A stretch of DNA of 64,000 nt, from the NCBI RefSeq assembly GCF_040712315.1, contig NC_134017.1:54965136-55029135 (forward strand), read 5' to 3'. Source of the stretch: Castanea sativa (taxonomy: Eukaryota > Streptophyta > Magnoliopsida > Fagales > Fagaceae). The notes under the pieces were generated by a model. That model did not search any database. It was given only the letters and a program-made list of their open reading frames with translations, and was not told where the DNA came from. Position 1 is the stretch's first letter; each line of letters opens with the position of its first letter. Position numbers and translations under genes: made by a program. Of this stretch, positions 2,849 to 59,325 are shown piece by piece.

Positions 2849-5584
2849 GTTAATGTTGAAGGGATTGAATTAAAGCCTGTTGCTGTTGGCACATCTCAGA
2901 ATTTACATGTGGGTCAAAGCTGCTTTGCCATTGGAAATCCTTATGGATATGAGAACACTCTGACAACAGGGGTAATGTCTCTAATATGTCTGCTATATAA
3001 CCAACCAAAAGAAAAGAAGAAGCAAAAAAAATAAATAAATAAATTTAATACCAAGTGTGAACTATGAAATTTCACAACTGAGGTCATAATCTATTTTAAA
3101 TCTATTGTACCTTGTTTTGGAGTACTTTGAGGCTTTGAGCAGTCAATTGAGAGTGTTCTTTTCTCATTGGCATGTGGCCCTGTCTTTGGTAAAGGAGTCT
3201 AACATCCATGCATTTGTTACTTTGAGTTGTGCAGGTAGTCAGTGGATTAGGCAGGGAGATACCCTCGCCAAATGGAAGGGCCATTCGAGGAGCAATTCAA
3301 ACAGATGCTGACATTAATGCAGGTAAATTTCATTTTGCTTTCAAATATTTGAAATTCCTTGATAATCATCACTCTTTCTCTTACTTCAGTAAAGATTGTA
3401 TTTATTGAATCCATCCTGTTATATATAAATTCTTTATTGTTGAAGATTTACTCAGTTTTGTATATTGCAAATATGCAACCATTACTCTTTGTCGTTGTCG
3501 AGTGATGTAAGATCATACTACTATAATTAGCTACCCAGTTACCTAGTGCACTGGCGGAACCATAGACATTTGAGTGGGGGCAGTTGTCTTCACAAAAAAT
3601 TTCTAAGATTTTATGAAGTTATGGTTTGTTCAAATTTTCAGAATAGTTTTGGATATTTATCTGATTATTACACCCACTGATATAAGAATCAAGTATAGAG
3701 TTTTTATTCAAGTAAAATGTAACTTTGTATTGAAGTGTCCTTTAATTTCATTTTAATTTTTCCTCCATTAAGTAACCTTATGATCAATTGAATTATTTGG
3801 ATATAATTTGTACTTTGATCGAATCATTTTCTTTTTATCTGCATTAAGGATTGTTTTATAGTTTAGGATTTGCATTCCACAATCTTGAATAGATTAGAAT
3901 TATTGTTTTTTATATGACAAAGTGGAACCGAGTTCTTACCAATGCTAATTTTATAGTTAAATGAATTGCTATTCTTACCAATGCTAATTTTCATTCCATT
4001 ATCCTTCATACTTCGATGCATGGACTCTGTATAGGTAATTCAGGAGGGCCATTAATTGATTCATACGGCCATGTTATCGGAGTCAATACTGCAACTTTTA
4101 CTCGCAAAGGTGAAGAGATGCTTCTTAGTTAATTTTATTTCCCTTAATTGCACCTTTGACCTGACATTTTGATAAATAAACATCATGCACATGTTTTTTT
4201 CCCCCACTGTAATAGTTTGAGCCACTTGTTTGTTCACTTCAAAGGTGCTTTGCCTTTTGTGATATAATCTTCAGTAACTCGTTCAGCATTTGGAAGGATA
4301 AAGAATGGGAGAAAGTAAAGGGGAAAAGAGCAAAACTTAGGTACATTTCCCTAGGTATTGTACCACAGGTTCTCCAACTAAACACGACTGCATAAATAAA
4401 TTAAAAGAAATGGAATTAAAGAGAGAGAGAGAGGAGAACGATGAGGTCCACCATTCACTGCCATTCCTTTCCTTTTCTTTTTTTGGATAAGTAAAAATAT
4501 ATATTAAACAAATAAAAAATAAAACTATAAAAAGGCAAAGGGTCATACCCCAGAGAAAGGCCAGCCCCTCCAAAAGCATTCAAGTTCAATGGGAGACTAC
4601 AACATAAAGAAGAGTCTTAGCATGAACTTGGGGAACAACATGGATGAACAAACTAAACAGGACTAACAAAAATGTCATGAGACAATCCCCAAGATCTCAT
4701 AAGATAAGCCATCTATATTCTTAGGATGGCTTGCAACCTTGAAGAGTACTCAGCCTAGCTCTAACATAAAGAGTAATATCATTAATGACACATTCATTTC
4801 TAGCTCTAGCCTTGAAAATTCTTGAATGGCATGTTAAACACACTTGCCAGTACATATATTCATCATTTTTGAAATATCACCAATTTGTGTGTGTATAAGT
4901 TACACTTGATGAAACATTTGTATAATGTTATACAATCAACTATACTTTTCATATTAATCAAACATTAAGATGATCAAAGATTAAAAACTATTTTAATTTT
5001 AAATTATTTATAAGTTTAGTTTTATTTTTAAATGTCAATTGGATAGTAAATGATGCAATTAATATGAAATTTTTCATGCCTAATAAGCATGTACTTTGTT
5101 GCATACTATTAATAAGCATTAATAGCCGAAAAGCATTTTTTCAAAGCCAAAACCAAACATGTACTTTGTTGCATATTCATCGGAGTTCATGTTTTCACTT
5201 TTCAGAGCTCTATCAGTGTACACTCTTGGTGTATGAGACTTACAAATTATATAATCTTTTTTATTTTTGAACCTTAAGAAACTTCATATTTCACGAACCT
5301 TATTTCTACTAGAATAATATATATATGTTAAGTTATTACAATTTATAGTTGAGGGATTAAATTGAACTTCACCCAATAATTAGAGGAACAAATTAGTTAT
5401 TCAATCTAAAATATAATAAAGATGCTAGAAGCCTAGATCAAAGTTTTGAATGCTATTGGTTTTTCATTGTACTGCAGGGACAGGAGTATCATCAGGTGTT
5501 AACTTTGCAATACCAATCGACACTATTGTTCGAATTGTACCTTACCTCATTGTGTATGGAACATCTTATAAGGACAGGTTTTGA
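2849..5584 (+). CDS. DEG5: DEG5-like chloroplast Deg/HtrA protease, last four exons (partial)
   Basis: Four exons at 2849-2971, 3235-3322, 4035-4109 and 5478-5584 (stop TGA) join in frame across GT-AG introns. The product contains CFAIGNPYGYENTL, VVSGLGREIPSP, QTDADINAGNSGGPL and GVNTATFTRKG, and ends IVYGTSYKDRF. GNSGGP holds the nucleophile serine (codon 4040-4042). This fits the C-terminal half of the trypsin-like domain of plant DEG5, a thylakoid-lumen protease that works with DEG8 in photosystem II repair. Termination soon after the protease domain, without a PDZ domain, is the known feature separating DEG5 from DEG1/DEG8. Exons for the transit peptide and the catalytic His and Asp are not visible in 1-2848, so they lie upstream of the window or are lost. 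The last intron (4110-5477) holds an antisense LINE tail and a dispersed repeat. No stop or frameshift interrupts the visible exons. Confidence 0.85.
4470..4860 (-). mobile_element. 5'-truncated LINE 3' end in a DEG5 intron
   Basis: On the minus strand the segment includes the plant LINE-type 3' tail: a GGCCTTTCTCTGGGGTATGA block, a T-rich stretch, then a sequence ending TTTTTACTTATCC followed by an A-rich run (T-run at 4482-4486 on the plus strand). The upstream part reads as a decayed LINE 3' untranslated region. It is antisense to the host gene and inside the last intron, where it should be spliced out. A TSD was not resolved. Confidence 0.5.
4900..5420. repeat. Dispersed repeat, copy 1 (pairs with about 23540-24080)
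   Basis: Shares AAGATGATCAAAGA, TAAAAACTATTT, GGATAGTAAAT/AGATAGTAAAT, TTAATATGAAATTT and ACCCAATAATTA blocks in the same order as 23540-24080. The type is unknown; both copies are non-coding and diverged. Confidence 0.45.
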
Positions 5585-7689: not shown

Positions 7690-9281
7690 GGTTGTGAAAA
7701 TGCACTTTTGATCCCTACATTTTGGGTCAATTCCCATTTTGGTCCCAAAATTGATTTCTTTGCTAATGTCATCCCTAAAAAAAGAAAATCGTTTTTAAAA
7801 TGGTCCTTTCCGTCAGGCTAGAAACGGAAAAATCCTACGTGGCTAACGGAATACCCTATTTGCTGACGTGGCACTGACGTGGCTATTAAAATATTATTAA
7901 AAAAGATTATTTGGCATATTTTAAATGCCATGTCAGCATTTTAATTTTTTTAAATAAAGCCACGTCAGAAATTTTATATAAAAAAGAAATTAAATTTAAA
8001 AAAAACCTTAAATCTAATTTAATTAAAAAAACTTGTTTCTCAAAAAAAAAAAAAAAGTGTTCTTCCCCATCAAACCCAGGAAGAACTCAAACCCACATTC
8101 CCAAAAAAGAAACCCAGCAACCAAACAACAAACACATACCCAGATCGGCAAAACCACAACAGCACACCACAACAGAAACAAAAACCCAAACCAACAGCAC
8201 ACCACACGGCCAAACCCACAAATTTGACCACCACTTCCACCGTCACCCACCAGCCACAAGCCCAAATCACAGCAACAGAAAAAAAGAAAAAGAAAAAAAT
8301 CAACCACAACAAGAAATCACCACTTCCTCCTCCACAACTTCTCAAGAAATCACCACCATCCACAGCAAGAAAAAAAGAAAAAAAAAGAACCCACAAACCA
8401 AATCAACCAAATCGGACCACGACTCCTACGATCCACGCTCCGACCCATGAACAATCAGACCCACGCTTTGATCCACCATTCGATCCACGCAGACCCACGA
8501 AGAGAGAACAAAGAACAGAGAAAGAGGGAGAGAAGAAGAAGCCTCCGCGACGTTGGGTTCTGGGTTGGTGGGTTTGGGTCTCGGTGAGAACAGAGAAAAG
8601 AGGGAGAGAAGAAGAAGCCTCCGCGACGTTGGGTGCTGGGTTGGTGGGTTTGGGTCTCGGCGAGAACAGAGAACAGAGGGAGAGAAGAAGAAGAAGCCGT
8701 CGCGACGTTGGGTGCTGGGTTGGTGGGTTTGGGTCTCGGCGAGAACAGAGAACAGAGGGAGAGAAGAAGAAGCCGCCGCGACGTTGGGTGCGGCGAGAAC
8801 AGAGAAAAGAGGGAGAGAAGAGAGAGCAAAGAAAAGAAGTGAGAGAGGAGAGATAATTAGATTTAAGGTTGGGTTGTGTTTGTTGTTGGGTTTGAGTTCT
8901 TCCTGGGTTTGATGGGGAAGAACACTTTTTTTTTTTTTTTGAGAAACAAGTTTTTTTAATTAAATTAGATTTAAGGTTTTTTTTTTTAAATTTAATTTCT
9001 TTTTTATATAAAATTCCTGACGTGGCTTTATTTAAAAAAATTAAAATGCTGACATGGCATTTAAAATATGCCAAATAATCTTTTTTAATAATATTTTAAT
9101 AGCCACGTCAGCAAATAGGGTATTCCGTTAGCCACGTAGGATTTTTCCGTTTCTAGCCTGACGGAAAAGACCATTTTAAAAACGATTTTCTTTTTTTAGG
9201 GATGACATTAGCAAAGAAATCAATTTTGGAACCAAAATGGAAATTTACCCAAAATGTAGGGATCAAAAGTGCATTTTCGCC
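7690..9281. mobile_element. Mutator-like non-autonomous element with about 400-bp TIRs
   Basis: The left arm (7690 to about 8096) is repeated in inverse orientation in the right arm (about 8880-9281) with few mismatches. The outer termini read GGTTGTGAAAATGCAC and, on the opposite strand, GGCGAAAATGCAC. Both ends abut T-runs (left 7672-7689, right 9282-9291), consistent with a 9-bp TSD of nine Ts, although a T-tract cannot prove it. A second 9-bp direct repeat, ACATTGTGG, lies outside both ends (7662-7670 and 9316-9324). The central part is CA-rich then GA-rich low complexity and encodes no transposase. Long TIRs and 9-bp TSDs are typical of MULEs. Confidence 0.75.
8541..8830. repeat. 76-bp minisatellite inside the long-TIR element
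   Basis: Units start at 8541 (GCCTCCGCGACGTTGGG), 8617, 8696 and 8772, spaced 76, 79 and 76 bp. The third spacing has an extra AGA in the GAA run. The fourth unit is shortened. It is GC-richer than its surroundings and lies between the two arms of the element. Confidence 0.85.
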
Positions 9282-13543: not shown

Positions 13544-14349
13544 AACTTGTTGTCCAATTTGATATCTTCTTAAATACGCACTATAACAAAGTGTAGTTAT
13601 TTCAACCCTTTTTTATCGAGGGTTTACTAAAATCTGTCGATACAACTTATAAATAAAAATGTAGAGAGCTTTATTACTAAACTTTATTTCAAATGTTATT
13701 TGGTCCCTCAAAATAAGTCAAAGCACCCTTGAAATAAATGGGAAAAAAAAAAAACTCACTAATTTTTTCAGCCAACAACCCTTGGTAAAATATTACAAAT
13801 TTTTCAGCCCTTCAATATATGGGTGCCTGGCTGATGAAATACATCCTCAGAATGCCCTTCGAAAAAAACCCACAACAAAATTTTCAACCCTTGCAAAAAG
13901 CCCACAACTAAATTTAAAACTATACCCGTATTATATAAATTTAAAACAAATTAAATAAACAAAACAAAGAGCTTATAACTACTTTCACTCTCAGAGCATA
14001 GAAATCGCAGATATTCCAATGGCTAAGTTCTCAGAGCATAGCTCGTCGATCATGGAGATCTCATAGAGCTCGACGATCATCGATTTTGTACGAGTTCATC
14101 TCCATTTTGTGACTCTTCATCTCTCTGCCGAGTTCATCTCCATCGATTTTGCTCGACGATCACCGTTTCTCAGCTCCGATTAGGTACGAATCACAAACCC
14201 TAATTTCGTCTTTGATTTTTTTGTTTTTTTGGTTTACCCACACTTTTTCATCAATTTCCCCATGATTTCGTTTCATATTTCTCAGAAAACGGAGCTCATC
14301 ATCGATTTCCCTATAGAAAGCTGTGCAGCACCATCAGGTAATGATATTC

Positions 14350-14450
14350 CAGCAAACGGCGCGAAGGTTGAAGAAGGTCTCAGCGTCTTCAAGTCCGATA
14401 AATTCGATGCCGATTCTTTCGTCCAGTCTCGCTGCTCTCTGAACGAGAAG
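14350..14450 (+). pseudogene. EXO84B: EXO84B exon 1 fragment captured in CACTA element
   Basis: The frame reads ANGAKVEEGLSVFKSDKFDA then DSFVQSRCSLNEK, followed by a GT donor at 14451. This matches the N-terminal segment of plant exocyst subunit EXO84B (VEEGLS-FKSDKFDAD-VQS-CS-NEK), which acts in vesicle tethering at the plasma membrane. The next exon (RQLCSYLLDLK-type) is absent. Upstream (13990-14230) is sequence resembling a 5' leader with repeated CTCGACGATCA blocks. The fragment is open from about 14229, and an ATG lies in frame at 14262, but the joined product would not be EXO84. Confidence 0.7.
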
Positions 14451-15862
14451 GTTTTTTTCTTTTTCTTCTTTTTCATCTTAATCTCTGTTTGGTTGCTCAG
14501 ATAACAAAATCGAATCGGAATTGACTTTCTCTAACAATGAAATTCTGTTCATTTTCCTTTTGTTTAGTTCGGTTTAGGTTTTAACAGCTACAATTAGAAT
14601 TGCAGTTCCGATTTTATGGATTTTTAGCTTGTTAGGTTTTGATTTCAAGGTTCTGTGCTTGAAATATAATTATACAAGTAGAATTTAGAAGTTCATCTCT
14701 GCGAAATTTTCTCTAGCATTGGCAATTTTCACGAAAATTGTGTTAAAAAGAGTTCTTTGGCATGTTGATTTTTGGCGTTGTTGTGAAGCTGTTTGTGATT
14801 AGAGAACAGAACTAAATATGATCTTTTCTTATACACACAAGATCGATATTTGTGTATCCGTGGCTGTTTTGGCCTCATCTTCACATTCCAATTCAAGTGA
14901 TCAAGCTAGATGAACTCAAATTTAGTAGTCTCCCATATAGATTTTCGGAACAATCTGCATTGTTCGGTTGAAAATTTCATATTGGTTGTCTTCTACTGCC
15001 TGTGTGTATGACCGGTACAATGCATTTGTCAAAGCATTGAACATTTGCTTATCACCTTTGGATTAGACATCCATTTGTTTACTTCATTTTATACATCTAT
15101 CAATAAGTCTACGGACACAACTTTGTTGACATGGTGTATTGTGATTGGTGCATAATAAGAGTGTTGTCATGGTGGACCTAGGTGAAAGTGATGTTGCTCT
15201 AACTATAACAGGCTATGTTGATAGTTGTAAAAAAATGATATTTTATTTTTGATAAGTAAATAGCTGTGAAACAAAGTTGTGTTCCTAGCATTATGTGTTT
15301 TTTTTTTTTTTTTTTGGGTTTCATCATAGACTATACTAACAGGAAAGAATGGGGAACTAAAGCAAATCTAATCTTATCCATTTAGAGACATCAAGCAAGA
15401 GCAGTGAAAGTCTTCTCCAGATAGTGACATGGAATCCTAATAATGCTTTTTTGTTTCAATATCTCAATTTGCTGCTCCTCCTCAGCATGGTAATATTCTT
15501 ATATGTGATTAGTGTTATTGATGTGGTAATTGTTTTCTATTTAAAATTAAAAGGCTAGTAGGCAGTGTGCAAAGATCCATCTTCTGCAAGGTCTGGGAGA
15601 CGTGGTTTCTTGGTTTATATGCAACATCACTCAAACCCCCCGAGTCATTTTTTTGGGGCAGAGGGCACTTGCTTTGGCAATGTGATCTATTTAAATTGCC
15701 TTTATAAACTATAGGATTGGTCTCTGATTCCGTAGGTTGGTTGAACAAAGTAAATTTGCGGATTTTGTTAGTGCTAGAATTAGTATTCTTATGGTTTGCA
15801 AGCGATTGTGTTTGACAATCTAGAGAGCTATTGACCATTTTGTCTTTTTGAATTTATTACAG

Positions 15863-17916
15863 AACTTGCATTTGCATTTGTGTATCGAGAAGTTCTGGCG
15901 TCCACACCCGTGACAGATGGTGCAGCTGCAAAAAGAAAAGCAGGTATATTATTGATGAGCAGGGGCGGAACTAGAATTTTAAGAGTGAGGGGGCCAAAGT
16001 AATAACAAAAATAAAATTTATCCAATTTAAGAATGCTACATGGGAATTATGTGAGATTAGGGCCTCAATGATTATCCACCAAAGAGAAGAGAGAAGGAAT
16101 TAGGCAAATGCATAAGTGACATGAATCCAAATGCGATTCCTTGATAATTGAGAATGATTAAGTTTAGAGGTGATGAGTGGCTTTTATTAATAAATAATAA
16201 GTATTGGGTTGTTGTTGCATTGCTGTTGTAGATACTCCCTTAATACTATTCTTATTTTATTTTTAAAAAAGTTGTAGATGCTTCATTAACATCACTGTAT
16301 CAAGACAACTAAGTTCCAGTTCCAGTATCAGTATCAGTAGGTTGAATTGTCAGAAATGACCATGGCTTAGGTGGAAAATTTGTAAGTTTGGTGCTATTGT
16401 ATGCTCATTTGCCCATTAGATCAATCAAGTCTTCTGTATGATGTTGGCTGTTTGCATTTTAGTTTGAGTTGATGGCTTGAAATTTGGACGTTTTAGAGAA
16501 TTTGATATATTGAATGATACTTACAGGATTTGTTCGTTTATTTCTTTTTGTTTCTGTGCAGAGGATTTTGTTTCTGAAAACAAGAGATTTAAAGGTATTG
16601 GCATTGGTGCTCCTGAGGGTCCAATCTCTCTTGATGATTTTCGAAGCCTCCAGCGTTCAAACAAGGTATCTTTATTTGGGTTACTGTTATGATTGACTAT
16701 GGAAATAACTTCAGTTATGGAGTTAGATAAAAGGTCTTTGTTACATAATTTATTCACATCAAATATTCCATTAAGCAGGAACTGAGGAAGCAGTTGGAAA
16801 GTCAGGGCCTTACAATTGATACATTGCGCAATGAGAATCGTGCGTCTGCTCAGCATCATGAAAATGTAAGTGGTGCTGGTGGATTGAGACTCTCTCTCTT
16901 ATGTGTGTGCTAGGATGTGTTCAGTTGTCACAAGTGAGCGAGTGCATATGCTTGTGCTCATGTTAATCTCTTCCAGTAAAAAACTTGTGTTTTTTCTTAC
17001 AGCATGAATCATAAGGCCTATGAATCGAAAACTCCAGAAAGAAGATAAGGCCTATGAATCTATGATAGGTTAAAAGCCAGTATAAAATTTACACTATTAT
17101 GTACATTAGTACATAGATAATTAATAGATCCACTATAGATACACAATGGGATGTTCCTCCTGTTAACTCCCTAGCTACAATAGAGTCTAACCATGGAGAT
17201 GACAGAATAAGAGACCCCTTAGATGAGTTGATGGATACACAACTTCCTTCTTTGAACACCAACATTCCCTCCTTCTCAACTAGACCATCATGGCAACCTC
17301 CACCAAAATCCACCAAAATCTAATTTAATTTAAAAAGATTCCCAAGAAAAAATGCAACTTCTCAATTTAAGAAGAAAAAAAAAATAAAAATTATCAACTT
17401 CTCAATAAGTTGCTATTTTTAATTTGCTGGTTTCTTTTTAAAAATTATTTTTCAGAAAGAATTGTCTAAATTTATGTTATCTCTGTGGATTCAAGAAAAG
17501 GGCAGCAGCCAAGTCTCAAAGATTCAGTCAGATGGCTTCAAATAAAAAAAAGATTTGATTTTTACAGCTTTTAATTCTATTTTCATACAATTTCTGTATG
17601 TTTAACTACTCTATATATGATAACTGCTTTAACTTGTACTTATTTTCTACATGCCTGTGTATCAAAGTTCTCAACTTTTTGTACCATACCTCAAGGGGTG
17701 GTGTTGATCAAAGTTATTATCCAAATATTTTGGAAGAAGAAAGTGCCTTTTGAGCTGGAGCTCATTGGCTGTTATTGATTTACAATTGCTCGTGTTTGGG
17801 CATTATAGCTTATTCTTTTAAAGCCTTTTCTACCATAAGTAACCTCGCTCATACTAGTCATTTTTTCTGTGCAGGACCTACGTTCTTAGCTGGAGGAGTT
17901 GATTCCTGAGCAACAG
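15863..17916 (+). pseudogene. FHA-domain coiled-coil protein fragment, four exons, captured
   Basis: Exons at 15863-15943, 16562-16665, 16779-16865 and 17875-17916 each have AG/GT borders. The first three join in frame: LAFAFVYREV...AAAKRKA / EDFVSENKRFKGIGIGAPEG...LDDFRSLQRSNK / ELRKQLESQGLTIDTLRNEN... This resembles a plant SMAD/FHA-domain protein in the segment linking the FHA domain to its coiled coil. The fourth exon reads DLRS, then an in-frame TAG (17887-17889), then LEELIPEQQ, so the copy is broken. The FHA core and C-terminal coiled coil are missing. The family assignment rests on remembered resemblance; a database search would settle it. Confidence 0.6.
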
Positions 17917-19120
17917 GTATGCGTTACCAATTTTTAATTTTGATTCCCTTTTCCTCTTTGCTCGTGCAATTAAGTTATTATTATTATTTATGTTTTGGGG
18001 GGAAATTGTGAGAAAAGGATGGTCTGCCTTGGAGGTGGAAAGCCCCTGTTTGGTTCCATTTTGGTGGTTGGATTAACTATTTGAGTGACAATGTTTGCCT
18101 TGCTTATTCTCTATTGAAGTATGAATATCAATAGTCATTTAACTAAAGTTTAACTAAAGTTTTAACTAAAGTTTTTCAGCGACCCCAAATGGCGGAAAAT
18201 GTTGGACAATGTTTTTTTAGGCTGATACAAATGTGGCCTAAGTGTTTATCTGCATACAGTTGAATGAAAGGAACTTATAATAGGTTGATTTTTACCCAAT
18301 ACTGGCTATCTTATCTGTATTGGCAGAATCTATTTACCTAATTAAGAAGGGATTTAGGTGTTTGGCTTTTGGGAGAGACTGATTATTTGATTCTTAAGTA
18401 ACATCGCTGTTTTAGGAATTTGAAAGTGAACAAAAAATAACCAAAACATCTATGTTTTGGACAGAACCATCCAAACTGTTCTGACCCGCAAATGGTTCTA
18501 CAAATTTACCTGTTGAGCCATTGAGTTGAGAATTTTAACAATAATTTTACTAGAACAGTTTTAGGGGGTGTGTTGAACCATTACACTGATTACAGAGACC
18601 AGTTCATGGTTGGCGGTCCAGGCCGTTTGTTTTTTCAAACACTGGTCATAACATTTTAAAGGCGGCTTTTGAACCTTTCTCTTTAATCAATGTGTATGTA
18701 TTACACAAGGTAATTGGATTAGAAATCTGTGTATGTATCTGTGTTAGCATAGATTGATACCCAAGGTAATTAATTTAGAGTTTTCAATACTGTAGAAACT
18801 CTTTGGAAACCTTATAGGTAACTCTTTTAAACTTATATTCTCTTACACTACTTAATAGTTAATATAGTTGATCTATATAATAATCAAGTTTGTATAAGTC
18901 AATAATTATCTACTTATACCTCTGTTAGGTATACAAGATTAGGTAGGTATATATATATATATATATTCAACCCGTAGCACCCAATATAGAGATCAGCTTT
19001 TACCCTAAAATAACAGTTTAAAATACAGTTGATTTTAAATAATATATTTTTAAACTTTACAAACCCCAAGTTGTATTCATGGGCTAGGCTCTAGAATGAA
19101 AGTAAAAGCCCAATCACATT

Positions 19121-19207
19121 ATGAAGATCACTGCGGAGCTTGAGAATCTCACAAACCTTCAGCCCCAAGGTGGCTGTGACGACCCAAACTTCTCTTTCCT
19201 CTTTAAG
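19121..19207 (+). pseudogene. CZIB/UPF0587 zinc-binding protein exon fragment, captured
   Basis: ATG at 19121 opens MKITAELENLTNLQPQGGCD followed by DPNFSFLFK and a GT at 19208. This is the highly conserved N-terminus of the eukaryotic CXXC zinc-binding protein family (C1orf123/CZIB, UPF0587). The exons with the CXXC pairs are absent. It lies inside the CACTA element on the same strand as the other fragments. Confidence 0.65.
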
Positions 19208-19520
19208 GTCTTCTTCAATTTCTTTGTTCCATTTCTTAGGGATTTTAGTCTTGACTATTTCTTGTAGTTTTACTTTTAATCGTCCAATTTCTTCATTGTG
19301 TTACTTCATTATAGTTACAAATATGTACTCTTTTGGGACTTTAGCTTTTCACAATTCACAATTCACAATCATAGATTTTAGTTTAGCTTGTAACTCACAA
19401 TTGCCTTGTGGTTGTGTTCAAAGTGTAAATTCAGCCAATCACATTATGCCAATCACATTATGCTCATGTTGTTATCAAGTTCTTTCCAATATGGCTCACA
19501 AGCAATTGATTGTTTTACAG

Positions 19521-19757
19521 GTTCCTCCTGGGCTGGACAGCAAGGCTAGCACAGCCATAAACAAGGGGAGGATATACATATCCAAGGCCAGCCCACAAAA
19601 CGTCTTAGATTCATACCTTTATAAGAATCATCGAGGGATTTGTGTAGTTTTTGATTCTGCTAAACTGATAAGTGATAGGCCTAGACCTGTGTGTCTGTTA
19701 AAGCAATGGTATATTGAAATTTTCCGGAAGGATTTTATAGATGCTTCTCTCCCCTAA
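19521..19757 (+). pseudogene. Unrecognised exon fragment in CACTA element
   Basis: An AG acceptor (TTTTACAG, ending 19520) leads into an open frame of 78 codons beginning VPPGLDSKAST and containing GRIYISKASPQNVLDSYLY and DRPRPVCLLKQWYIE, ending at TAA 19755-19757. The composition looks like real protein and the frame is clean, so it is probably a fourth acquired gene piece. I do not recognise the family. Confidence 0.45.
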
Positions 19758-20289
19758 TGATTGTTTGATCATACAGGATTGTTGATACTTTTCACTTTGT
19801 GTATTTGGGTTCTTGTGCAGTCCTTTAATTTCTTGTTTTAAGCTTTCTTAATCAATTGCCAGGTTTATGGTTGGCATCAATTTGCCACCACTTGCTACCA
19901 TGTCTAACTTCATGAATGTATATATATATATATATATATAGAGTGCATGATTGTGGTTTTTTTTATAAATAAAATAAAATTTTATTTTGAGGGTCAAGAG
20001 ACCCTTTAAATAACATTATTTATCAAGGGTTATAAGTATAAATCTTTTAAACCTTGGTAAAAGGTTATTTAAGGGTCTTTTGACCCTCAAAATAAGATTA
20101 GAGCACTTGTTTTGAGGGGCACGAAGGCTCTCAAAATTTTTTTTTCGACGCTATATGTTTCAAAGGTTATCAAGGGTCGGTTGGACTCTTAAAATAATTT
20201 CTTTCAAGGTTTTTTACTACTTTTTTTAGGGGTTTTGACCCTTTTTTTAGGGGTTTTGACCCTTGAAAAAAGTCTAATTTGTTGTAGTG

Positions 20290-20609
20290 ACGGTAAATAC
20301 AAAATCTGACACGTGGCTTGCTACATGTCACAACAATACAATTCAGCTAAAGAGAAAATAAGTTGGCATTAAATGCATTAACCAATACCATTAGCATTGA
20401 CACCTCTGCATAAAGAAAATATCACAAATTGATATGCTCATCATCCAATTCCCAAACTTGTGAATTAATGTATCAGATGCCTACATATCAAATTTAGAAG
20501 AAAATACTGTTTACATAAAAGAGAAGAGAGTAGTCTTATACTTTTAGAAGAACCAAACTATTTATACAGAAGAAGAGCTAGAGAAAAAGTAAAACTAGCA
20601 TATATAAAT
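20290..20609. other. Spacer between two CACTA-type elements
   Basis: About 320 bp of AT-rich unique sequence starting with the ACG TSD of the upstream element. No gene recognised. Confidence 0.5.
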
Positions 20610-31693: not shown

Positions 31694-33551
31694 ATGGATC
31701 AATTGGTAGTGGAGGGTTTACTTAATCTGCGTCTCACTAAAGAGGAAGAAGAGGAAATATCAATAAAATCAAGGTGTAAATCTGATCTACTTGATGAATG
31801 TTCTCTTATGGCCTGTTTGGGAGTTTAGAGAGGGAGGAGAGTAGAGGGGAGTAGAGGGGAGGGGAGTAGTGGGGAGGAGAGTAGAGGAGAATGATTACCC
31901 TCCACCTTGTTTGAATGTTTTTATAATTAGTAAGGGGGAAGGGAGTAATTAGCCCTTCCCCTTGTTTTTAACATTGTAATTTTATAAATATAATAAGGGT
32001 AAATTAGGTAATTTACTTTATAAATAATTTTATGTGCTCTACTTTCCCTCCAAATCTCTCCAATTTGGGGGAATTAAAAATGAGGGGGTTGGAGGTAGTT
32101 GAAACCCCTCCAAATCCCTCCCCCTCCTTCCTTAAAAAACTCCCAAACAAGGTAATTGAATTACTCCCCTTCCCTCTACTCTACTCCCCCTCCTTTTTTA
32201 AACATCCAAACATGCCATTAGTCTCTTTGGTAGGCTATTAACAGATAGGAACCAAAATCAGAGGGCTTTGAAGAATACGATGAGATTGGCGTGGAAGATG
32301 GGCTCGGATCTTCAGATTGTGGATGTGGGAAATAATGTCCTGCAGTTCAAATTTGGGTCTGAGTATCAACTGAAATGGGTAGAACAAAATGGGCCATGGA
32401 ATTTTGACAACAACTTGTTGTTGTTGTGCAGATGGAGAAGGGGGCTTTCAGCTGCAAACATTAAGTTCACCCATTCCCCTTTTTGAGTTCAAATATGGGG
32501 ACTCCCCTTTGAGCTCATGTCAGAGGAGGTGGGCAGAGAGCTTGGCAATAGCATCGGGAGGTTTATTGAAATGGATCGGCGAGCAAGGCAGTCTAAACAA
32601 GCTAAATTTATGAGAATCAGAGTTGATCTTCAGCTAGATAAACCTCTAAGGAGAGGAGGAAGAGTGGCTAGTGTTGAAGGGGAGAAATGTTGGGTAAGCT
32701 TTAGGTATGAAAGGCTCCCTGTATTCTGTTTTCAGTGTGGTAAATTGGGACATGATGAGAGGCATTGTATGGAGCCTCCAGACCAGCAAAATCCTAAACA
32801 ATATGGGGATTGGCTTCGGGCTCAAGGGAATATAAGGATGGGAACAGAGAGGCCTAAGTCAACTAGCAGTGGAGAAAGAGATGGTGGTAGTAAGGATAGG
32901 ACGAATGAAAATGAAAATGTTGCAACTAAGTTCTCTGCTGGTTCAGTCTCCAACGGTGGGGAGAATCACTCCGGTGATACAGGCTACCAGAAAAATTCAA
33001 ATGAAGGGAGTACGGGGCAGTGTGAAGTCAAAGCAAGTGATAGTCTGCAGGGTGCAACACGTGATTTTACTGTTCAGATGGGACTGAAGGCTACAGCGAA
33101 TCTAGAGTCACGTGAAATGGATCTCGTCCCCCCAACTAGCTCCCCACGTGACATAGACGAAAATAAGGGCTTTGAAGATGCATTCTCTTTAGTGGGCCAG
33201 AAAGCCCATGCAGGAAAGGAGCATCAGGAAGTGACTAGCCCAATGAAGTGCAATGCTGGGCTTAATGAAAAAGAAAGATGCTCAACTGAGCCCACGAATA
33301 AAGAAACGGTAAGGAAAGCAAAGGCAAAGGCAAATTGGAAAAGAATCGCTAGAGAGAAAGGGAAGAGTAAAAGCCCAAAACCAAATATCCAGTTTTTAAG
33401 TACTAGCTCAAAGAGGGCAGGGAAACTTGTCTTTGAGGAAGATGAGACAGAAGCACCACAGAAGAAGCAATGTACTGAAACAGTTACAACACAGAACCAA
33501 TCTGATGAGGGATCGGCAGTGGCTGCATGGCAGCACCGCCGGGAGCCATGA
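31694..33551 (+). pseudogene. LINE ORF1: DUF4283 and CCHC zinc-knuckle protein, interrupted
   Basis: The frame starts at ATG 31694 (MDQLVVEGLL) and is cut at codon 38 by a MITE. It resumes in the same frame at 32221 and continues SLFGRLLTDRN through a DUF4283-like stretch. A TGA replaces the tryptophan of the expected F-W-V-Q-I-W-G-L-P-F motif (32484-32486). A CCHC knuckle, CFQCGKLGHDERHC (about 32728-32769), follows. A long charged tail ends at TGA 33549-33551. This is the nucleic-acid-binding ORF1 protein of plant L1 elements. Its stop overlaps the ORF2 start as ATGA. Confidence 0.8.
31809..32217. mobile_element. Harbinger/Tourist-type MITE inside LINE ORF1
   Basis: Termini TGGCCTGTTTGG (31809) and, inverted, TGGCATGTTTGG (ending 32217) are flanked by TTA on both sides (31806-31808, 32218-32220). 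That is the PIF/Harbinger target duplication. GAGGGGAG/CTCCCC-rich subterminal zones are also inverted. Removing the MITE and one TTA restores the ORF1 reading frame exactly, which confirms the borders. Confidence 0.9.
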
Positions 33552-36500
33552 ATCCCATAAGTTGGAACTGCCGAGGACTTGGGAACCCCTGGTCAGTTCG
33601 AGCGTTGCACGACATGGTGCGACGATGGAATCCCAAAGTAGTTTTTCTAATAAAGACTAAGGCGAAAGTCCGATGAATGGAAAGAATAAAATGCAGGCTG
33701 GGTCTTGCTAACGGTCTCATTGTCCCCTGTGTTGGCCGGAAGGGTGGTCTTGCTATGCTATGGGCTAGGGAAGTAGACCTGGAGATAAAGAGTTACACTC
33801 AGAATCATATTGATGCAGTAATCAGTGATATAGAAAGGAATTTCAAGTGGAGACTAACAGGTATCTATGGCCATCCAGAGACACATCGAAGGTATGAATC
33901 TTGGCACCTCCTTGCTTTTCTAAATAATCAAATGCAGCTACCATGGTTATGCCTAGGTGATTTTAATGAGATTTCATCTAACACAGAAAAATCAGGGGGG
34001 GCTATTCGGTCTCAACATCAAATGGATGGTTTTAGGAAAGTTGTGGATTACTGTGGCTTTAAGGATTTGGGATACTATGATTCTAATTTTACATGGAGCA
34101 ACATGCAGGGGGGGATGACAGAATATATCTAAGGTTAGATAAGGCTTTTGCCAACTTAGAGTGGTGTGAGAAGTTTGGGGATATGAGAGTGCATCACTTA
34201 CCTGATTCAACTTCTAATTATTGTGCACTTCTTGTTTCCGCTTTTGTAACTTAAAGACAACCCTGAGCAAAGCGTTTCCACTTCGAGGCAATGTGGGTTA
34301 AAAATGCTGAATGCAAATATATAATTGAAAATTCTTGGGGTGTGGATTTTGATCTTGGTACTCCAGAGGGGGTGATGGCCAATCTCAGTAGATGTGCTAC
34401 AGAATTATTGAAATGGAGCTCTAATGTTTTTGGGCAAATTCCAAAGAAGATCCAAGCAAAAAGAAATGAGCTGAACTCCCTAACTCTCCAAGATAAGGAT
34501 GGAGCATTAAGTACAGAGATCAATAGTTTAAGAAAGGAAGTAAACGATTTGCTTGATGATGAGGAGATATATTGGGGTCAAAGGGCTAAGGCACACTGGC
34601 TTAAGGAGGGCGATAAGAACACAAAGTTTTTTCACACCCAAGCTTCAGAGCGTCGTAAGCAAAACACAATTTTGGGAATCGAAGATAGCCAAGGCAGATG
34701 GTGTAACGAAAGGGACAGTATTGCTCAAGTTGCCGTTGAATATTTTGAGACTATATATGAGACGAACTCCCCAACTCTGATTCATGAGATAATTGCTGCT
34801 ATTCCCACTAAGGTGATTGCTGAGATGAATGAAAGCCTCAATAAGAACTTCACAAGAAAGGAGGTAGTCATGGCACTTAAGCAGATTCATCCCACAAAAG
34901 CGCCCGGCCCCGATGGTATGTCGGCAATTTTTTATCTTAAATACTGGAATATTATAGGGTGTAGCATTACTAATATGGTTCTAAATGTACTAAATGGTAA
35001 TTTGCCTATGGCTAGTCTTAATAGAACAAACATTGCTCTCATCCCAAAGATTAATAATCCCAAAAGAATGACTGATTTTCGACCTATAAGCCTTTGTAAC
35101 GTTGTGTATAAACTCATATAAAAAACCATTGCAAATAGATTTAAGGCTCTCCTTCCTCATATTATCTCAGAAAACCAAGGTGCTTTCACTTCTGACAGGT
35201 TGATAACTGACAATGTCCTTGTAGCGTTTGAGTTAATGCACTTTCTAAATTACAAAAATGTAGGGAATGAGGGATATATGGCGGCGAAACTTGATGTGAG
35301 TAAGGCGTTTGACAGAGTAGAGTGGTGCTTCATTCAGGCAGTTATGCAGAAACTGGGGTTCAACCCCAAGTGGGTAAATCTGGTTATGAGATGCATCACC
35401 TCGGTGTCATACTTAGTCTTAATAAATGGTGCTGCCTATGGGAATATTACCCCAACCCGAGGCCTCAGGCAAGGGGACCCTCTCTCCCCAACACTCTTTC
35501 TCATTTGTACTGAGGGACTTTCTGCCCTTATTCACGAGGCAGCCCGAAACCAGCTTTGGACAGGAATTTCTATAAGTAGGGGCTGCCTAAGAGTCACCTA
35601 CCTTTTTTTTGCGGATGATAGCATCCTCTTCTGCAAAGCTAGTGCTGAGGAATGTCGGGGTTTTGAAGCACATCCTCCAAAAATATGAGGAGGCCTCAAG
35701 TTAGAAAATTAACACGGAGAAATCCTCTGTTTTCTTCAGTCCCAACACATCTCAAGAAGTCAAGGATGAGATTTTTGCTACCTTAGGCCCTATGCAAGAC
35801 TCTAGACACACAAGATATTTGGGCCTCCCATCCCTCATTGGAAGATCGAAGAAGCAAGTGTTTGCTATTCTTAAAGAGAGGATTGGGCAAAAATTAGTTG
35901 GCTGGAAGAGTAAACTTCTATCTATGGGGGGGAAGGAAATTCTTATAAAAGCGGTAGCACAAGCAATTCCCGCGTACACTATGGGGTGTTTTCTTCTTCC
36001 TCAAAGCCTTTGTGAAGATATTGAAAATATGATGAGAAATTTCTGGTGGGGACAGAAACAGCAAGAAAATAAAATGAGTTGGGTCAGCTGGAAAACTATG
36101 TGTAAGCAGAAAGCAAATGTGGAATGGGCTTTAGGAATCTACATACTTTTAACAAGGCCATGCTAGCTAAGCAATCATGGAGGATTTTACAAAATCCAAA
36201 CTCTTTGGTGGCAAAGGTTCTCAAATCTAGATACTTTCCTACCGGGGACATCCCAAATGCTAAACTTGGTAACACCCCATCATACTCTTGGAGAAGCATC
36301 CATAGCAACCTGGATATTATTAGAGAGGGCACTCGTTGGAGAGTGGGTAACGAGAAGCTAATCTACATTTGGGATGACAAATGGCTGCCAACCCCTTCCA
36401 CTTACAAGGTAATTTCGCCTCCAAATGATACCCCCTAATTCCCAATGGTCTCATCTCTTATTGATCCTATAAAAAGGTGGTGGAATGTGGACTTGATAAG

Positions 36501-37647
36501 AGCATCCTTTCTGCCATTTGAGGCGGACACAATCTTGAGAATTCCACTAAGTCACACTCTTCCGGATGACAAAATAATCTAGATTGGAAATAAACGAGGT
36601 GAGTTCTCAGTCAAAAGTGCCTAACACATTGCATATAACATGATTGAGTCAAATGATCAAGGAGAAAGTTCATCTAGGGATCCATGCAAACCTTTATGGA
36701 AAAGGCTCTGGCACCTCAACTTGCCGCCAAAAATCAAGGTTTTTGCTTGGAGAGCATGTGTAAATGGTCTCCCTACTATGGAAGCCTTTGTTAGAAAAGG
36801 AATTTCTCAAAATAAGACTTGCCTTATTTGTGGCAATGAAGCTGAAAATATTGATCATGCTCTTATTGGCTGTGGTTTTGCTTCCTTGGTTTAGAACCTT
36901 TGGCCTGAAAATCCTCTTCGTACGCTCAGCTTTGGAAAGTCTTTCCTGGATTCTGCACTATTTATTCTTTCTCACTCAACGTCTCAAGACCTGGAGTTAT
37001 TCTTTGCCATGGCTTGGGCCTTATGGTCAAACAGAAACAGAATTGTGCACAAGGAAGATAGCCTCTCCCCACTTCAGGTTTGGCATATGGCAAAAAACAC
37101 TGTGGATGACTACTCATGCTATACCAATTGGAAGCTCGGCCTAACAAGACCAGCCCTCTCTAAATGGATTCCGCCCCCTCTTGGATCCCACAAAGTGAAT
37201 GTTGACGGTGCATCTTCAGATCAGGAAAATCACTCTAGTGTGGGAGTTGTAATTAGGGACTGCAAGGGCCAAGTTGTGGCTGCCCTTAGCTTGCCACTTC
37301 AAGCTTATTATTCTGCTGAGCTTACAGAAATTTTTGCACTTGAGCAAGGTGTCCTCCTCGCTCAAGAACTACAGCTGCCTTGGGTTATAATTGAGTCTGA
37401 CTCTCTGGCAGCCATTTAAACACTCAATGAAAAGGCTACGGGAAGCACCTTCGGGCACCTTATTCAGGGAATTCTTTGGGTATGTGATTCGTTTGAGTCT
37501 TATCATTTTAAGCACTTAAGTAGAAGCTATAATGCAGTAGCTCATGAACTTGCTCAATATGCTAGAAGATCTGGAAACTACCAAATTTGGAAAGGAGCTG
37601 CTCCCTCCTTTGTCTTACCGTTTCTGCTTACTGATATGATGTACTGA
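33548..37647 (+). pseudogene. LINE ORF2: endonuclease, reverse transcriptase, zf-RVT and RNase H
   Basis: ATG 33548 opens MNPISWNCRGLGNPWSVRAL, the N-terminus of the APE-type endonuclease. LCLGDFNEI (about 33950) is its catalytic block. Reverse transcriptase follows with KAPGPDGM (34900-34923), LDVSKAFDRVEW, GLRQGDPLSPTLF and FADDS (35608-35622). A zf-RVT segment with C-LIC-N-E--DHAL follows (36820-36870). An RNase H domain starts VNVDGASS (about 37197) and contains AEL-EIFALEQG and ESDSLAA. Lesions include TGA 33674, frameshifts near 34130, 35680 and 36120, TAA near 35119, and several stops after 36430. It cannot be functional. Confidence 0.85.
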
Positions 37648-46979: not shown

Positions 46980-47318
46980 CTATAAATTTAGCAGAGACAA
47001 TTGCTCTTCAATAGAACAACCAACATGACAAGATGAACGACAGGAGGAAGGAATGAGAATAAGACCAAGGCACCGCTGTTCCATTGGAGAAGTAGAGGAG
47101 CGTCGGGTGCTACGGTACTCCACAGCATCTTGGAGAATGATGTTTCCTTGCTTGTCTATGCAGTGGAAGGTGCCCAAGAAAAATCTTCCATCTCTAATTC
47201 CCACCAACATTCGGCGAAACAGCAGTTTCCTTACACGAGCTACAAGATCTGAACTGTTTGAGTTTGGCCCATCAGAACTCTCAGCCTGAATCAAGGATTT
47301 CTCTGGCTCTAGTTCCAT
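46980..47318 (-). CDS. NAA38: LSM-domain protein, NatC auxiliary subunit NAA38-like
   Basis: A 112-residue protein starts MELEPEKSLIQ at ATG 47318. An Sm1 motif (VRKLLFRRMLVGIRDGRFFL then GTFHCIDKQGNIILQDA) and an Sm2 motif (RCLGLILIPSSCRSSCHV) cover residues about 29-98. The G-DGR--LG-F-C-D---N-IL spacing fits the LSMD1/NAA38 subfamily, the small auxiliary subunit of the NatC N-terminal acetyltransferase. An snRNP-type role is the alternative. The gene is uninterrupted in a single coding exon. An untranslated exon may lie near 48900-49120, where GC content rises. Copy B at 58990-59325 is frameshifted, so this looks like the working copy. Confidence 0.8.
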   Translation of the reverse strand: MELEPEKSLIQAESSDGPNSNSSDLVARVRKLLFRRMLVGIRDGRFFLGTFHCIDKQGNIILQDAVEYRSTRRSSTSPMEQRCLGLILIPSSCRSSCHVGCSIEEQLSLLNL

Positions 47319-58989: not shown

Positions 58990-59325
58990 TTAGCAGAGAC
59001 AATTGCTCTTCAATAGCACAACCCACATGACAAGACAAACGACAAGAGGAAGGAATGAGAATAAGACCAAGGCACCGCTGTTCCATTGGAGAAGTAGAGG
59101 AGCGTCGGGTGCTACGGTACTCACAGCATCTTGGAGAATGATGTTTTCTTGCTTGTCCATGCAGTGGAAGGTGCCCAAGAAAAATCTTCCATCTCTAATT
59201 CCCACCAACATTCGGCGAAACAGTAGTTTCCTTACACGAGCTACAAGATCTGAACTATTTGAGTTTGGCCCATCAGAACTCTCTGCCTGAATCAAGGATT
59301 TCTCTGCCTCTAGTTCCATAACCAT
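58990..59325 (-). pseudogene. Frameshifted second copy of the NAA38-like LSM gene
   Basis: Identical to the 46980-47318 product for most of the first 70 residues (VARVRKLLFRRMLVGIRDGR retained; CMDKQENIIL instead of CIDKQGNIIL). One base is then missing near 59122 (GTACTCACAG versus GTACTCCACAG in copy A). The frame shifts after QDAV and the Sm2 half is lost. The change G to E in KQGNI is also at a conserved position. It is probably non-functional. Confidence 0.85.

Follow-up and report, generated by a model that had tools for sequence, protein, structure and literature searches.

How do the terminal inverted repeat (TIR) transposons of plants take up host genes? The route is unsettled, and the model given for elements of the Pack-CACTA kind is tandem insertion. 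A locus of the chestnut Castanea sativa offers a good case for following how capture happens, and it clearly exemplifies a type of gene shuffling already known. Within a stretch of 64,000 nucleotides, the whole of which is hereafter called the window (C5:54965136-55029135; contig NC_134017.1 of assembly GCF_040712315.1), positions 13579..20289 (+) are occupied by a whole non-autonomous CACTA (Pack-CACTA) element of 6711 bp that holds fragments from five unrelated genes of its host, namely EXO84, an FHA-domain gene, mitochondrial citrate synthase, CZIB and a SABATH methyltransferase. The element is intact, and it was probably patched stepwise during the repair of breaks, as DNA synthesis changed template to sister elements and host genes. 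One genome contains the window copy, two sisters that are most simply taken to be in the pre-capture state, and the donor gene, so that the young FHA capture can be followed at both junctions to the single base.

The boundaries of the element are given by its sequence. Its left end is CACTATAACAAA and its right end TTTGTTGTAGTG; the terminal inverted repeats (CACTATAACAAA / CACTACAACAAA) begin with CACTA and agree at 11 of 12 bp. An exact target site duplication (TSD), ACG, which carries no strand, stands at 13576..13578 on the left and at 20290..20292 on the right. The subterminal motif RCCCTT/AAGGGY, which was picked post hoc from inspection of the sequence, occurs 12 times in the element's outer 700 bp versus 0.14 times per 700 bp inside, a count equalled in none of 2000 shuffles. 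Only two of its open reading frames (ORFs) reach at least 110 codons (112 and 205 codons), and both are too short for the transposase of the sister element C5d, as judged by ORF length. Positions 13579-20289 are one intact non-autonomous CACTA element of the Pack-CACTA kind. A preliminary description of this DNA had already proposed these termini, the exact TSD, the CACTA-style subterminal motifs and a Pack-CACTA element that had gathered exons of at least three unrelated host genes, all of which is borne out; the parental loci are not neighbours. A comparison of the element with the genome in which it lies (716 Mb, 13 contigs) scored the best 40 of 422 candidates: its exact composition of pieces is found in one copy among the matches listed, while the family is multicopy.

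The captured pieces were placed by Blast against fetched genomic loci, and donors were located for all of them but SABATH, on C1, C5 (22 Mb away), C6 and C11. Following the family's left end and leader (13579..14357, +), the EXO84 piece (14355..15353, +) is 95.8% identical to its donor at C5:77.4 Mb, with a Kimura two-parameter (K2P) distance of 0.029. It comprises part of exon 1, running to 14450, and part of intron 1; the 5' splice site is kept, and the native ATG and any 3' splice site are absent. The donor locus encodes an Exo84_C domain (E 9.9e-21). The FHA-gene piece (15457..17013, +), 98.6% identical to its donor at C6:53.9 Mb (K2P 0.013), holds the end of the FHA-domain exon and, with their introns, three full exons with both splice borders (15863-15943, 16562-16665 and 16779-16865, +). 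When joined, the upstream exons of the donor give an FHA domain (E 1.9e-12); the capture begins within the last nucleotides of the FHA-domain exon, and consequently the FHA fold is not carried. This piece is present in no other element among the matches listed (best 40 of 422). None of its 20 changes from the donor lies in the exons, which make up 18% of its length, but about half of the changes should be the donor's own, and purifying selection on these exons was rejected as a claim.

Farther right, the citrate synthase piece (17500..17988, +; K2P 0.025) derives from C11:70.8 Mb and lacks about 200 bp internally, at 17541-17544. Its exon at 17875-17916 (+) retains both splice sites and contains a TAG stop. 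One downstream exon of the donor locus matches citrate synthase 4, as do the two captured exons when joined (E 9.1e-8); Pfam gave no match for two ORFs of this donor locus. An FHA origin of exon 17875-17916 is thereby ruled out, this exon being citrate synthase. The element further holds DNA from beside a P4-ATPase gene (18338..18680, +; donor C11:35.5 Mb), antisense to that gene and originating about 0.55 kb past the last ORF taken for the phospholipid P4-ATPase; it differs from the donor by a K2P of 0.012 over 336 sites and is also present in sisters. The CZIB piece (19055..19475, +; donor C1:1.69 Mb, K2P 0.009 over 341 sites), likewise present in sisters, has an exon to 19207 and has lost 153 bp including the native ATG. 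The captured exon matches PF05907 at E 4.6e-4, which falls short of Pfam's cut-off, and another exon of the donor locus matches it at E 3.4e-13. The SABATH methyltransferase piece (19467..19612, +) has a 3' splice site and an exon from 19521; it matches PF03492 at E 1.6e-4 (below Pfam's cut-off) and an N-methyltransferase structure at E 1.4e-5, and among longer proteins the closest one found is jasmonate O-methyltransferase-like, from Fagus crenata (86%). The gene-derived DNA ends at 19612, and the remainder of the exon to 19757 is the family's own right end (19613..20289, +, with the cluster of subterminal motifs, as delimited by comparison with sister right ends). Between the pieces so placed lie the stretches 17027-17499, 17989-18337 and 18681-19054.

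The preliminary description had recommended a search of the same genome for parental EXO84, FHA and CZIB loci and for sister elements, and both were found. Its EXO84B piece has a donor with Exo84_C in the same locus, and its CZIB piece one with PF05907. The FHA piece that it had drawn at 15863-17916 stands as FHA-gene DNA over 15457-17013, while the exon ending at 17916 belongs to citrate synthase and the FHA fold is absent; its unknown protein at 19521-19757 is indeed an exon piece, now identified as SABATH methyltransferase, and gene-derived to 19612 only. The single orientation that it had noted holds for the five coding pieces here (5/5 sense) and fails for the family, in which a dioxygenase piece of sister C4e is antisense; a family rule of sense captures is thus ruled out. 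With the sisters included (XBAT35 and nuclease sense, dioxygenase antisense), 7 of 8 tool-supported coding captures are sense, in a set that was not drawn systematically and from which no bias is claimed. Two more antisense ORFs, excluded from this tally, one of C3e and one of C5d (the latter searched with the first 137 of its 221 codons), had no Pfam match, and that of C5d no PDB match either. RNA-mediated capture is ruled out by the kept introns.

A search of the genome with the left end gave 44 matches at about 40 places, including the window (best 40 of 94 candidates scored). Ten fetched sisters have both ends and an exact 3-bp TSD (C3e ATT, C11e ATA, C4e AGT, C1b ATA, C8b AAT, C11c CCA, C5d CTA, C12d TAA, C3f GTT and C9x ACA), and an eleventh, C1e, has TAG provided that its mutated last base is included. 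Sister C5d has Transpos_assoc, tnp2 transposase (Transposase_21) and DUF4218 domains and two ORFs in one frame with a stop between them, and 4.8 kb of C5d recur at 98% in C8d, which was fetched in part; on this domain content, a transposase-bearing relative exists, though, given the stop, perhaps not an active one. The SABATH piece is present in 14 of the 25 family right ends examined, and its acceptor AG is kept in 12 of these 14 (lost in C3f and C10g). Longer pieces than those of the window copy are held by C11e (ATPase flank) and C1e (citrate synthase and CZIB), and hence these three probably reached the window copy via other elements. Upstream of the transposase ORF of C5d, positions 4135-4569 include stretches common to the CZIB modules of the window copy and C1e. 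The 18.6-kb sister C12d (C12:39357007-39375600; L022/L023) contains ORFs of a long terminal repeat (LTR) retrotransposon-like insert.

The most instructive of these sisters is C3e, which matches the window copy over 13579-15470, 17029-18821 and 19467-20289. Between the positions matching 15470 and 17029, C3e has 432 bp of other DNA instead of FHA. The backbone stretch at 15354..15470 (+) is common with C3e, and from 15432 with C1e, and both sisters run on from it through the 432 bp absent in the window copy; together they share an unbroken 602 bp at 99% that spans both FHA breakpoints, while the left part of C1e differs. By parsimony, the 432 bp would most simply be the older state, replaced by FHA in the window copy, which agrees with the confinement of a filler at the junction to the window copy. 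The K2P between the window copy and the C3e backbone is 0.011, near the 0.013 that separates FHA from its donor; these distances, together with 0.029 for EXO84 and 0.025 for citrate synthase, fit this order of capture. CZIB and the ATPase flank lie equally near to their donors, over fewer sites, but sisters have them too.

The filler in question, AGGCCTATGAATC, lies at the FHA/backbone junction (17014..17026, +) and is a 13-bp exact copy of 17048-17060. Its source lies 34 bp downstream; among the 22854 complex 13-mers of the window, 140 have a copy within 100 bp. A further filler, at the CZIB deletion junction, which C1e has as well, copies a CZIB intron motif and gives an in-frame ATG at 19121. 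Templated fillers are a mark of synthesis that switches templates. At the element/FHA junction, a longer imperfect match extends over 14 nucleotides, with a local alignment score reached by 1 of 20000 random placements.

The left end of the window copy has another history. Over its first 600 bp the leader is, gaps aside, 97-100% identical to C8b, C1b, L025 and L042 versus 92% to C3e; from about 14180 the window copy is 98-99% identical to C3e, with C8b equally close there, and from EXO84 onward the sequence is common to the window copy and C3e. Of the leader sites that discriminate, 37 agree with C8b, up to 14222, and 5 with C3e, placing the leader in the lineage C8b/C1b/C12d/L025/L042 with a switch after 14222. 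The leader tree groups the window copy in a clade of six rows (support 100/100); a clade of the window copy with C3e is rejected by the approximately unbiased (AU) test (p-AU 1.7e-55). Judged from these alignments, the window copy is a recombinant among sisters, with a leader of other ancestry than its backbone. At 13813-13860, it has about 48 bp of leader that are missing from C8b, C3e and L042.

Taken as a mechanism, repair with template switching would begin with breaks inside element copies, arising perhaps from excision of the transposon or at fragile sites. Such a break may be filled by synthesis-dependent repair (gap repair, polymerase-theta-like); copying from sister elements would keep the register, and at short homologies the synthesis would switch to unrelated host genes, by which gene pieces would be patched in one after another. 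The window element itself would presumably be moved by the transposase-bearing relative. Several observations weigh against this account. The exact overlaps are short: 3 bp (AAC) at the leader/EXO84 junction, with a chance of about 7%, and 4 bp at the element/FHA junction, within the imperfect match there, with a chance of about 2%. All five located donors are far away, on other chromosomes or at 22 Mb, where gap-filling in animals favours the same chromosome, and donor and progenitor are both known for three junctions only. The tree of the right ends lacks resolution, and there a clade of the window copy with C3e is not rejected (p-AU 0.34). Moreover, a left part, host DNA and a right part can also be produced by tandem insertion, and microhomology and fillers can also be left by end joining.

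Tandem insertion is therefore the alternative to be weighed. In this model, proposed for Arabidopsis Pack-CACTA and published for Pack-CACTA and Pack-TYPE capture (PMC8903248; PMC13317346), two related elements first insert close together on either side of host DNA; the ends that face each other are then lost by deletion, and the hybrid is mobilized by the outer pair. Each donor would have been acquired at a site of element insertion. It provides for capture at the DNA level with introns, and end joining can explain the microhomology; nevertheless, we regard it as an unlikely origin of this element. The two deletion ends would have had to fall 432 bp apart and in register in a 6.9-kb element, for which a hand estimate with uniform independent ends gives about 6%. 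Among 13 elements (78 pairs), none of 219 shared blocks is out of order and none is inverted, 41 of them, in 25 pairs, being internal; matches overlapping better ones were dropped from this count, including an inverted palindrome of the right end, and C8d entered it in part. Since block pairs share ancestry and are not independent, 0 of 219 is not a probability. Blast (E 1e-8, >60 bits) detected no match to the family ends within the 6.5-8.0 kb fetched about each of the five donor segments, and tandem insertion alone does not explain a leader from another lineage. An ordinary decayed gene neighbourhood, or a segmental duplication, flanked by CACTA-like ends would account for pieces that keep introns and a single orientation, as neighbouring genes might, but with donors on C1, C5 (22 Mb off), C6 and C11, an exact TSD, and sisters with the same ends and other contents, this origin is vanishingly improbable and was ruled out.

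Whether the assembled pieces could be expressed together depends on their splice sites. The preliminary description had credited most pieces with usable splice borders: both are intact in the three FHA exons and the one citrate synthase exon, while EXO84 and CZIB keep only the 5' site and SABATH only the 3' site. A predicted first exon is provided by the family leader, with a reading frame MISFHIS...CAAPS at 14262..14337 (+) and a 5' splice site CAG|GTAATG; two upstream ATGs precede it, and 5 of the 11 aligned left ends retain the splice site. The predicted 3' terminal exon (19521..19757, +) has 78 codons in the window copy, where a TGA reads CGA. Among the 14 SABATH right ends this change is found in the window copy only; elsewhere the frame ends after 37 codons in 12 copies and is shifted in 1. 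The longest open frame among the splice combinations enumerated, 194 codons, joins leader, FHA1, FHA2, FHA3 and SABATH. It depends on use of the leader 5' site, on the citrate synthase exon being skipped and on the TGA-to-CGA change. Transcription from the family leader and splicing of the leader, FHA exons and SABATH exon into this frame are thus predicted. For the splice sites considered, cryptic sites not being among them, one protein across all donors is ruled out, because EXO84 and CZIB are without an acceptor and the citrate synthase exon holds a stop. The single spliced chimeric transcript envisaged earlier survives in part, as the predicted leader-FHA-SABATH path, which EXO84, CZIB and citrate synthase do not join. 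A protein search found no near-full-length relative of the 194-codon frame. Apart from splicing, an unspliced open frame of 205 codons at 19140-19757, with TTG as its first codon, leads out of CZIB sequence into the SABATH exon.

The terminal exon recurs in annotated proteins. For Castanea sativa, NCBI gives a model 'XBAT35 isoform X2' that aligns within C9x and ends on the SABATH exon of that sister, with 37 of 37 residues identical from VPP on; its 9-residue first exon matches C9x only at E 0.33, the remainder strongly. ACB094_09G168100 of Castanea mollissima has five pieces on the sister type C3f/C4e, also ends on the SABATH exon, and has a bifunctional nuclease domain match below Pfam's cut-off. 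Neither model starts on the leader. A third chimeric model, CMV_019731 of C. mollissima (P0025), combines a tRNA deacylase domain with an internal SABATH exon. Within the search length limits, region searches with the SABATH exon returned these three proteins, a SABATH fragment and one SABATH protein.

It is possible, if doubtful, that the family functions as an exon-trap cassette, a proposal compatible with the other explanations, in which the leader first exon and the SABATH 3' exon turn host exons into spliced chimeric genes, some of them expressed. The in-frame leader-FHA-SABATH path, the agreement of the annotated chimeric proteins with the layout of two sister types on whose SABATH exon they end, the internal SABATH exon of CMV_019731 and the frequency of this exon among right ends all argue for such a function. 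On the other hand, the XBAT35 and ACB094_09G168100 gene models may be computational, the first exon of the former is poorly matched and neither begins on the leader, whose 5' splice site is missing from over half of the left ends aligned. The upstream ATGs, the citrate synthase exon that must be skipped, the AG lost in C3f and C10g and the lack of a near-full-length relative among the proteins found by search also speak against it. A shade more doubtful still is the wider proposal that the family is a self-made gene factory, a mobile exon-trap cassette in which template-switching repair swaps host exons between leader and SABATH exon; the window copy would then encode a leader-FHA-SABATH protein, and the XBAT35-SABATH and bifunctional nuclease-SABATH proteins would be the products of sisters. 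Since sisters share the SABATH last exon and annotated chimeric proteins contain it, exon trapping by a transposon family is here open to a direct test.

Elsewhere in the window, ORFs starting MAYFKCHVSILIFLNKAT at 7911 (+) and 9074 (-) suggest an inverted-repeat element of about 1.2 kb at 7911-9074. Two ORFs on the minus strand, 46980-47318 and 58990-59325, which we take to be Sm-like, lie 12 kb apart and are nearly identical over their first ~65 residues (...DLVARVRKLLFRRMLVGIRDGRFFLGTFHC...), perhaps by local duplication. A run of ORFs at 32517-37419 (+) resembles the reverse transcriptase and endonuclease of a long interspersed nuclear element (LINE). Rfam at the gathering threshold gave no match in the window.

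The nearest precedent for the content of the element is Tgm-Express1, a soybean CACTA element of the wp allele, which at 5.7 kb is similar in size, carries fragments, exonic and intronic, from five unrelated genes of its host and gives 12 chimeric transcripts in which splice sites are used (PMC1947982). A multi-donor CACTA element with spliced chimeric RNAs is already established, and the earlier view of multi-donor assembly with retained splicing as unusual is not supported. The chimeric RNAs of Tgm-Express1 are described as starting at F3H, the host gene into which that element is inserted (PMC1947982), whereas the candidate first exon of the chestnut element is the family leader; its predicted last exon is a captured SABATH exon common to many sisters. 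In Chenopodium, CACTA elements with captured gene fragments 5' of the transposase region have been reported, for which the mechanism of Rubin and Levy was cited; in the part of the report available, each element has fragments of one gene, without a pre-capture state (PMC8978399). Among the papers listed by a literature search on Castanea and CACTA, which concern cacti or other matters, none reports the chestnut family, a thin basis for absence; another, on capture by template switching, found none on that theme, and among the matches listed in a third, on Pack-MULE and gap repair, only PMC8277862 uses the word Pack-MULE.

With the Pack-CACTA and Pack-TYPE elements of Arabidopsis, rice and maize, the chestnut element shares a non-autonomous nature and TIR-transposon ends around captured coding DNA (PMC8903248). 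Their capture, also treated in PMC13317346, is modelled as tandem insertion with remobilization (PMC8903248), whereas the chestnut evidence points to in-register replacement with templated filler. In this respect it resembles the gap-filling of animal Pack-TIR elements (FoSTeST), in which template switching at microhomology occurs during repair of a TIR element (PMC8277862). On the simplest reading, an internal stretch of 432 bp has been replaced by donor DNA, with local homology and a templated filler, as gap-filling would have it; the bias of that process towards nearby donors is not seen in chestnut, where several distant donors have contributed to one plant element. In animals, same-chromosome captures are given as widespread (59.8%), and the authors considered applicability to plant Pack-MULEs worth exploring (PMC8277862). 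Set beside these systems, what is fresh in the chestnut element is its resolved capture history and the last exon that it shares with its family.

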